From a virus: DNA of 64,000 nt. Numbering within the stretch: the stretch's first letter is position 1; each line of letters starts with the position of its first letter. The DNA lies in the IMG/VR virus record IMGVR_UViG_3300042516_005631, positions 31,455-95,454 of that record. One strand, written 5' to 3'. The translations under genes and the position numbers were made by a program. The notes under the pieces are model-generated. The model was not told the origin of the DNA. It was given only the letters and a program-made list of their open reading frames with translations, and ran no database searches. Shown here one piece after another: positions 42,528 through 43,662 of this stretch.

Positions 42528-42588
42528 AAAAAGGCTATTTTCATTCGGTTATACATATTACCGTATTCTGCCTTTTCACAAAATCCCA

Positions 42589-42819: not shown

Positions 42820-42823
42820 ATTG

Positions 42824-42896
42824 AGCCGATGGAGGGACTCGAACCCACGACCTGCTGATTACAAATCAGCTGCTCTACCAGCTGAGCTACATCGGC
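42824..42896 (-). tRNA. tRNA-Thr (TGT)
   Basis: 73 nt; acceptor GCCGATG/CATCGGC, anticodon stem GCTGA-TTTGTAA-TCAGC giving TGT, T-loop TTCGAGT. Four bases from tRNA-Asp. Confidence 0.9.
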
Positions 42897-42944
42897 AAAA
42901 AAAAAACCCTAGAGGTATCTATTGATCAAGTAGACCATCTAGGG
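42897..42944 (-). terminator. terminator of the structured RNA
   Basis: CCCTAGA (42907-42913) pairs with TCTAGGG (42938-42944) with further partial pairing inside, followed on the minus strand by a run of T. It lies directly upstream of tRNA-Thr. Confidence 0.75.
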
Positions 42945-43157
42945 GGTGATATTGGTTATATGGTAGTTCGTAAAGGCAACGCGTTTGCACTTACAAAGCA
43001 TCCCAATTTCCCAATACCGATAAGTCCAGTGTAGTGAGCAGATCTTACGAGATGCTGTCTGGATCTGGGCCTATGGCTATCTCACCACAGGGGGGAACAA
43101 AAGACCTACCCTGGTACGCTCGATCGCGGTCACCACAGTCCAGAAGCGTGGTAGGTA
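42897..43157 (-). ncRNA. candidate structured ncRNA, about 260 nt
   Basis: GC-rich in an AT-rich genome and bounded by an ATATTTATA motif (43164-43172) and a strong terminator. In transcript order the stems are 43150-43156/43104-43110 enclosing 43145-43149/43116-43120; 43081-43087/43032-43038 enclosing 43062-43067/43039-43044; and 43011-43018/42948-42955 enclosing a hairpin at 42970-42994. No coding frame of credible composition. I could not match it to RNase P, tmRNA, SRP or 6S RNA. Confidence 0.6.
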
Positions 43158-43163
43158 CTTGTT

Positions 43164-43172
43164 TATAAATAT
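43164..43172 (-). promoter_or_regulatory. late-type motif ATATTTATA
   Basis: Ends 7-8 nt before the first stem of the structured RNA, the position expected for a -10 element. Confidence 0.55.
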
Positions 43173-43227
43173 TTGAACTTCTAAAACCCACCATAGGGCA
43201 AGGAAACTCCATTCAATGTTTTTTGCG

Positions 43228-43290
43228 TGGTCAAGGGGGGACTCGAACCCCCTGCTGAGTATAGTGCGTTTACCCTTACGCAACATGACC
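43228..43290 (-). tRNA. tRNA-like element lacking the anticodon arm
   Basis: 63 nt. Acceptor GGTCATG/CTTGACC with discriminator A, D-arm GCGT-AAGGGTAA-ACGC and a perfect T-arm GGGGG-TTCGAGT-CCCCC. Only 13 nt (ACTATACTCAGCA) separate D- and T-arms where about 23 are needed, so no anticodon stem forms. A deletion-derived pseudogene or a tRNA mimic. Confidence 0.6.
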
Positions 43291-43455
43291 ATTGTAGTGG
43301 AGATTTGTAACCAACGCATGATCACCCCTACGTTTCGTTTCTTTTGTCTTCGGCACTCCACTGTTGCAAGTACTCCTTATCTTGCGCCGCCGTTCGTGAA
43401 TCTTCCGAAATTCCAACGACTGTTACTGTTAACTATCGGAGTCAAGTAACTGCTG
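43291..43455 (-). other. GC-richer structured spacer in tRNA cassette
   Basis: Between tRNA-Gln and the tRNA-like element. AGTGGAG (43296-43302) pairs with CTCCACT (43356-43362), and GTTAC (43422-43426) with GTAAC (43446-43450). No credible gene. May be part of a processed multi-RNA transcript. Confidence 0.35.
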
Positions 43456-43528: not shown

Positions 43529-43662
43529 ATTTGCAGGACATCGCTTAACCTGCGGTGCTGCCAGCATTACACACCTTTGATGTTTCCATCACGCGATTTT
43601 TTTAATCGCAGGACCCGCTCCCTGCTCTGAACGTGTACTTTGTTCTATTAAGCGTTTTTTTG
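43529..43662 (-). ncRNA. candidate compact structured RNA between tRNA-Glu and tRNA-Gln
   Basis: A 7-bp closing stem CGCTTAA/TTAAGCG (43542-43548 with 43648-43654) encloses CCTGCG/CGCAGG (43549-43554 with 43607-43612), a GATG-GAAA-CATC GNRA tetraloop hairpin (43579-43590) and an alternative GCGATT/AATCGC stem (43593-43609). The nesting and the tetraloop favour a real RNA rather than spacer. Confidence 0.5.

Follow-up and report, generated by a model that had tools for sequence, protein, structure and literature searches.

A T4-like phage encodes, among its tRNA genes, a structured RNA that is almost certainly homologous, in part, to the antitoxin RNA of the bacterial AbiF system. As judged from sequence, this RNA is probably a phage-borne, toxin-less tandem mimic of the AbiF antitoxin that disarms abortive infection, AbiF (Abi_2) being a HEPN RNase of type III toxin-antitoxin (TA)/abortive infection systems. 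The candidate RNA runs on the minus strand from ~43160 to 42897 of the window, i.e., the whole 64,000-nt stretch of viral DNA analyzed. It is real and structured, and it has been conserved and repeatedly rearranged across many phages. According to covariance models and alignments, its domain D1 and, across the family, its domain M3 are homologous to RNA located directly upstream of bacterial AbiF genes, whereas domains M2, M4, and M5 have no known relative.

Transcript layout, promoter, and terminator

The source record is a 95-kb IMG/VR virus whose clamp loader is 35 to 37% identical to those of Microcystis, Pelagibacter, and Synechococcus T4-like phages. An earlier note, made from the letters alone, had placed within a tRNA cluster, at 42897-43157, a GC-rich, noncoding structured RNA equipped with a separate promoter and terminator, and these coordinates were right, the strand being minus. 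ARAGORN assigns all nearby tRNAs to the same strand as the RNA, which lies between them with tRNA-Thr directly downstream. The GC content of the segment is 0.41 to 0.55 versus ~0.28 in its surroundings, and no plausible ORF runs across it. The note's view of a genuine structured transcript with promoter and terminator is supported by covariation, a conserved upstream box, the terminator, and 73 further phage loci. The features follow one another in 5′ to 3′ order, with a U10 run after M5 and tRNA-Thr at once behind it:

43164-43172, minus strand: promoter-type box ATATTTATA (from sequence and the recurrence of ATAT[GT]TAT before ORFs)
43099-43162, minus strand: D1, AbiF-antitoxin-type hairpin of subtype 2 (covariance model R2 and covariation in phages)
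43111-43143, minus strand: possible pseudoknot within D1, CUGG (43143-43140) with CCAG (43114-43111), 97.5% of cells paired
43070-43091, minus strand: M2, hairpin CCUGUGG/CCAUAGG (compensated variants by eye)
43025-43063, minus strand: M3, AbiF-antitoxin-type hairpin of subtype 1, diverged here (model R3, covariation helices 1 and 2)
42948-43018, minus strand: M4, long stem GGUAUUGG/CCAAUAUC (covariation helices 3 to 5; phages only)
42906-42945, minus strand: M5, terminator hairpin with a conserved internal loop and a palindromic UGAUCA loop (covariation helices 6 and 7)
42897-42905, minus strand: U-run of the terminator (from sequence)
42823-42896, minus strand: tRNA-Thr(TGT), directly downstream (ARAGORN, Rfam)

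The RNA starts ~5 to 7 nt past the ATATTTATA box. Intergenic occurrences of ATAT[GT]TAT in the window number nine on the gene strand versus one on the other strand, mostly 12 to 34 nt ahead of ORFs or start codons, likely structural genes among them. ATAT[GT]TATA is likely a promoter element of the phage itself; it is found at window positions 42558, 57578, 63001, 8065, 10670, 14033, and 40971, 12 to 63 nt before coding-strand ORFs. In 12 of 17 homologs, a ATATNTAT box stands at most 24 nt upstream of D1. Copies devoid of D1 (L057, L060, and L061) have the box before H2, a hairpin of the longer versions, and in L054 and L073 the RNA directly follows a tRNA. At the other end, CCCUAGA...UCUAGGG plus U10 (42945-42897) forms the terminator.

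The three long stems of 7 to 8 bp reported earlier are the closing stems of D1 (ACCUACC/GGUAGGU; 43156-43150 with 43109-43103), M4 (GGUAUUGG/CCAAUAUC), and M5 (the terminator stem). D1 further comprises an inner ACGCU/AGCGU stem, an apical hairpin, a UACCAG bulge, and a UCUUUU tail; the paired letters of its possible pseudoknot are almost invariant and thus lend it no covariation support. Inspection of homologs by eye revealed compensated variants of M2, namely, CCUGUAGAU/AUCUACAGG and CCUGCGU/ACGUAGG. The core of M3, GCAUCUCGUAAGAUCUGC, occupies 43055-43038, and M4 encloses a GGGAA/UAUAAC internal loop and a variable inner hairpin. M5 occurs in two classes, one keeping the UGAUCA loop and the other having a GACG loop.

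Covariation and rearrangement among phage homologs

Homologs were found by three routes, i.e., the neighboring gene, the letters of M4 and D1, and the letters of M5 alone, the last of which added 26 phage loci by itself. Related copies were found in 73 further phage loci, and the M4-M5 model (R1) recovers 74 copies in phage loci, 62 of them distinct in sequence. Across M3-M5 in 19 phage sequences, 87.9% of the cells pair, and 30 of 46 pairs are changed on both sides, compared with 15.6 ± 2.1 in shuffles and at most 13 with slid partners. Doubly changed cells amount to 100 versus 26.5 ± 4.0 (shuffled) and 6 to 30 (slid partners). None of 500 shuffles reached this level of double change, and the test of covariation in homologs proposed in the earlier note thus came out in favor of the structure. 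D1 shows fewer variants in phages than M3-M5, with 99% of its cells paired and nine doubly changed cells versus 2.1, and the arms of H2 are complementary in all 14 copies, in four sequence versions. The apical-loop letters CC[AG]U[AU]AGA[UA]C are conserved, and the stems drift with compensation. Thermodynamic folding, another check proposed, gave a weak outcome: the z-scores of the RNA strand (−2.0) and its complement (−2.1) are nearly equal, so folding does not pick the strand, and the z-score was dropped as evidence for the RNA.

Members of the family range from ~110 nt (M3-M4-M5, e.g., L009) to ~390 to 400 nt, the longest form being D1-H2-H3-H4-M2-M3-M4-M5 (e.g., L020). Domains have been gained, lost, and swapped: L089 is D1-M5, L054 has one subtype 2 hairpin followed by M4-M5, and L077 has M2-M5 and carries M3 as its only AbiF-type hairpin. 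Module H4 (UUCUUUACC...GGUAAGGAA...AAAGGUUUU) lies within the RNA in L020, L003, L004, and L017 and stands alone past the terminator in L056; H4 appears to be a mobile module.

The genomic setting is shared with GOLLD and ROOL, ornate phage RNAs that occur near tRNA islands and combine conserved 3′ with variable 5′ parts (PMC12286853). The window RNA could be a large tRNA-island RNA of this kind, assembling into a homo-multimer via loops such as UGAUCA of M5, with the AbiF-like hairpins as mere building blocks. It is likewise an ornate phage RNA with a conserved 3′ part and a variable 5′ part, 42 of its 74 copies are located within 500 nt of a tRNA, and one M5 class keeps the palindromic loop. 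However, this would leave the homology to AbiF RNAs without explanation, and we deem it very unlikely. GOLLD and ROOL gave no Rfam match, no match in sequence or structure to them was seen, and our RNA is smaller (110 to 400 nt versus 650 to 800). Moreover, the GACG loop of the other M5 class means that the palindrome is not general, which argues against multimers, and part of the phage RNA has a bacterial relative with a known partner.

Kinship of D1 and M3 to leader RNAs of bacterial AbiF genes

One genome per prokaryote species (257 Gb in all) was scanned for the M3 letters GCATNCCGTAAGAWCTGC, a 17-letter pattern. The scan retrieved at least 119 stretches, mostly from Bacteroidota, some chance matches being expected at such a scale. 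Among the matches listed, an AbiF ORF (MANKESRSIDEQIELLKQRGM..., Abi_2) follows the motif at no more than 400 nt in 57 of 121 copies, and the usual bacterial layout is AACAGTACC-stem-motif-stem-GGTCATTTTTT, ~25 nt ahead of the AbiF start codon. A protein motif (AYRKIC) as the meaning of GCATNCCGTAAGAWCTGC was rejected, the surrounding frames being closed in the AbiF-leader copies. As a safeguard against circularity, AbiF genes were collected anew by Pfam PF07751 alone, without the phage motif. PF07751 (Abi_2) was detected in 19 of 198 genomes from the phylum of Bacteroides luti, and the leaders of the AbiF genes found in this way carry the same RNA in two subtypes. Subtype 1 is M3. Subtype 2, exemplified by AACAGTACTTGCCACGCTTCCCTGCAAAGCAGCGTACCAGGGCAAGTCTTTT of L335, is nearly identical in its letters to phage D1 except in the apical loop.

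The covariance model of subtype 2 (R2) was built from 12 bacterial RNAs, nine found by Pfam and three by the motif (non-Bacteroidota-type). It scored 44.8 bits on window D1 (E = 1e-10 in 390 kb; 8e-14 in 311 nt) and up to 70.9 bits in other phages (E = 4.5e-19; L054), its strong matches falling in this RNA family. R3, the model of subtype 1, derives mostly from motif-found copies of bacterial AbiF RNAs and is therefore less independent than R2. On window M3, it matched the core alone with 16.9 bits (E = 0.55 in 390 kb; 4e-4 within 311 nt), and it matched M3 in most other phage loci, the best full-length score being 43.5 bits (E = 8e-8). Of 41 phage loci, 40 were matched by R2 or R3 at E ≤ 0.01, among them all those found by M5 only. 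Window D1 is thus the solid case and window M3 the diverged one, whose identity rests on its aligned relatives. The apical loop of window D1 is replaced by a longer hairpin, and such an extended apex is present in only some bacterial AbiF RNAs, e.g., L331 (before AbiF) and L382 (before a DarT-like gene). Among bacterial genomes, R2 matched in 39 of 297; 13 of the best 20 loci have an Abi_2-like ORF, and several others lie on short or broken contigs.

The Rfam abiF model (RF03085) recovered neither the window RNA (no match anywhere in the window at E values up to 10) nor any site in 12 phage records, G000 among them, and it misses Bacteroidota copies that stand directly before AbiF. Only one of the copies scanned with it scored, the gammaproteobacterial L212, in which the match falls exactly on the motif (24.9 bits; cutoff, 37) with Abi_2 downstream. 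RF03085 is too narrow a model for this RNA type. The novelty claimed in the earlier note consequently needs division: it stands for M2, M4, and M5 and falls for D1 and M3. The known non-phage RNA family that the note had weighed against its own proposal emerged for these two domains only, and not through Rfam's own abiF model.

Known abiF RNAs (RF03085, AbiFr), such as RCd22 and the RNA of PDB 8vz6, have in common with the phage RNA a stem, an inner GC stem, a CCGUAAGA[AU]C loop, a bulge, and a U-rich tail, and RCd22 has abiF motifs in tandem, as the phage RNA does. In contrast to them, the phage RNA is not followed by a toxin gene, carries M2, M4, and M5 in addition, resides in tRNA islands of T4-like phages, and escapes the Rfam model.

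The bacterial AbiF-type RNAs also include copies without AbiF, beside a DarT-like gene (L382), an AAA ATPase gene (L383), or HsdR-like genes (L222 and L308), as well as in L287 and L318; a DUF3800-like ORF is among the neighbors of this set, all genes being named by eye. These AbiF-less copies are possibly antitoxin RNAs guarding other defense loci. In another arrangement, two AbiF-type RNAs ~580 nt apart lie upstream of a single AbiF gene (G176:C81, 846-896 and 1426-1476; L334 and L374).

Absence of the toxin gene and of other known RNAs

Abi_2 (PF07751) was detected in none of 12 phage records, and tblastn with five AbiF proteins returned no matches in 1.96 Mb of phage loci; this absence is general and not absolute for each phage, because some records are fragments. 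Since the phage DNA examined harbors no toxin gene, we do not count the RNA among AbiF TA systems and class it instead as a phage RNA that probably acts as their antitoxin does.

In the RNA region, Rfam reported tRNAs alone, both for the window and for L018 and L020. The earlier note had set aside tmRNA, RNase P, SRP, and 6S RNA by motif, in agreement with the Rfam search, which detected none of them in the window and nothing at the RNA itself up to E = 10; ARAGORN predicted no tmRNA. Phage and plasmid records yielded no blastn match to the RNA, 85k genomes no match to the M4 pattern, and 297 genomes from the phylum of Bacteroides luti no match to the M4-M5 model, a search without a positive control in cells. 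M4 and M5 are hence phage-only domains so far, as they are absent from the cellular genomes searched, and no relative of M2 turned up in the 297 genomes either; given the lack of such a control, this is a weak negative.

A toxin-less RNA might also be the relic or the seed of a TA locus in a phage that once had both the RNA and the AbiF gene and lost the toxin, with no antitoxin role at present. Such an origin would fit the homology to the RNA half of an AbiF system and the finding that prophages can hold complete AbiF systems (PMC12373285). Yet a toxin remnant occurs in none of the loci, and the two subtypes in one transcript, together with the rearranged copies (L089, D1-M5; L077, M3 only), argue for use. 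Compensatory changes and conserved loops indicate present selection, which also speaks against a relic, and we regard this origin as most improbable.

A proposed role in escape from abortive infection

The homology of D1 and M3 to AbiF RNA points to a function that the earlier note did not propose, i.e., mimicry of the AbiF antitoxin. In infection, transcription of the RNA would start at the phage promoter and stop at hairpin M5, and the single transcript would unite AbiF-type hairpins of both subtypes, D1 and M3. As host transcription stops in infection, host AbiF would lose its labile antitoxin. Abundant phage RNA would then occupy the site at which the AbiF dimer binds RNA and hold off the RNase, and, with AbiF kept neutral, the phage would escape abortive infection. 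With its two subtypes, the RNA would address two AbiF clades, which are 45% identical. M2, M4, and M5 would lend stability, shield the end of the RNA, or recruit additional partners. A DNA region of phage sk1 reportedly protects phage 712 from AbiF, as worded in a title cited by a review (reference 112 of PMC12737573), which is suggestive.

This scheme draws on what is established for AbiF, a HEPN RNase toxin that is neutralized by its RNA, also in trans (PMC12373285). RCd22 of Clostridioides difficile has two abiF motifs, binds AbiF directly, and neutralizes it in trans, and the integrity of the stem in AbiF RNA matters, whereas its sequence does not (PMC12373285). PDB 8vz6 is an AbiF-ncRNA complex according to a review (PMC12737573), and its AbiF protein matches Bacteroides AbiF with an E value of 1e-45. 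The phage promoter and the late-gene-like context count for antitoxin mimicry. Against it count the presence of AbiF genes in only ~10% of the sampled genomes of the Bacteroides luti phylum, the large share of the RNA (M2, M4, and M5) that an anti-AbiF role does not account for, and, in the window copy, the core-only match of M3 and the replaced apex of D1.

Alternatively, the AbiF-type hairpins might bind a phage protein or another HEPN or host protein, making the RNA a phage regulator or guard instead of an anti-AbiF decoy, as the bacterial AbiF-type RNAs beside genes other than AbiF (L382, L383, L222, and L308) could suggest. We consider this unlikely, given that no gene of an RNA-binding partner is seen fixed beside the RNA in phages and that the nearest experimentally known partner of the fold is AbiF (PMC12373285; PDB 8vz6).

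Antitoxin mimicry by the window RNA would have counterparts in other systems. In escape mutants of phage phiTE, the phage RNA pseudo-ToxI imitates the RNA antitoxin that counters a type III Abi toxin (PMC5086642; Blower et al. 2012). By analogy, both RNAs would imitate antitoxin RNAs of type III abortive infection systems; pseudo-ToxI acts on ToxIN and comes from laboratory escape mutants or recombination, whereas the RNA described here would address AbiF and has become fixed in many natural phages, where it has diversified. Racr RNA anti-CRISPRs are solitary copies of a host immune RNA encoded by viruses (PMC10651486); they mimic CRISPR repeats, and the phage RNA may be likened to them as a mimic of the AbiF antitoxin. 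TifA and Dmd are counter-defense proteins of T4-like phages against TA systems (PMC10853763; PMC5086642), with which the RNA would share the aim of anti-TA counter-defense in T4-like phages, despite being RNA and not protein. In the literature covered, to which subscription journals mostly did not belong, we found no paper describing phage mimics of the AbiF antitoxin.

Other RNAs of the inter-tRNA regions

The inter-tRNA regions of these phages hold at least six further conserved RNAs (B to G). RNA B (window 43291-43455, minus strand; 165 nt) is GC-rich and noncoding, has a GUGGAG/CUCCAC stem, is 83 to 99% identical in L002, L003, L006, L018, and L020, and has no Rfam match. RNA C (window 43529-43661, minus strand) contains a likely pseudoknot of AUCGC/GCGAU and GCAGG/CCUGC; in L020, a tRNA-Leu gene interrupts it, and L011 and L014 have its 3′ half alone. 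RNA D (~95 nt) is closed by AACACA/UGUGUU (L003, 12125-12220; L004, 11920-12010; L020, 2160-2260). RNA E (~100 nt; GGGUGG...CCACCC) is highly conserved and occurs in L018 (13350-13460), L011 (11933-12037), L014 (11800-11893), and L061. The cores of RNAs C and E are absent from 396 sampled genomes. RNA F (ACCUUAAUACCGAU...AGGUGGCAUCGGUGACCU) lies upstream of the main RNA in L055, L056, L059, and L064, and its last hairpin has a loop able to form a pseudoknot with an upstream ACCGAU. RNA G (window 43160-43228, minus strand) is a short spacer, GAGUUUCCUUACC...GGGUUUUACAAG, often right after a tRNA, with a compensated closing stem (UUGAA/UUCAA and GUGAC/GUCAC). Genes resembling tRNAs, with acceptor, D, and T arms and without a normal anticodon arm, are located at window 43228-43290 (minus strand), L003 12226-12348, and L011 11817-11934. 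The window gene (63 nt; Rfam tRNA, 36.4 bits) is missed by ARAGORN and is 95 to 97% conserved in L018 and L020.

The whole inter-tRNA island might conceivably be an RNA counter-defense island, in which RNAs B to G and the tRNA-like genes serve as decoys for other RNA-dependent defenses and modules are exchanged between phages; we offer this tentatively. A blastn search for RNAs B to G as mimics of other antitoxins gave no convincing match in 297 genomes, its positive control being weak.

Implications

To our knowledge, ToxIN escape mutants have so far been the main source of examples of antitoxin mimicry by RNA. A natural and widespread phage RNA family now seems to carry such mimics in fixed form, here of the antitoxin RNA that partners AbiF, the presumed ancestor of Cas13, and the Rfam abiF model misses types that are common in Bacteroidota. 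If the proposed role is true, part of the puzzling RNA in phage tRNA islands would have a function, and AbiF would be a real selective pressure on these phages.
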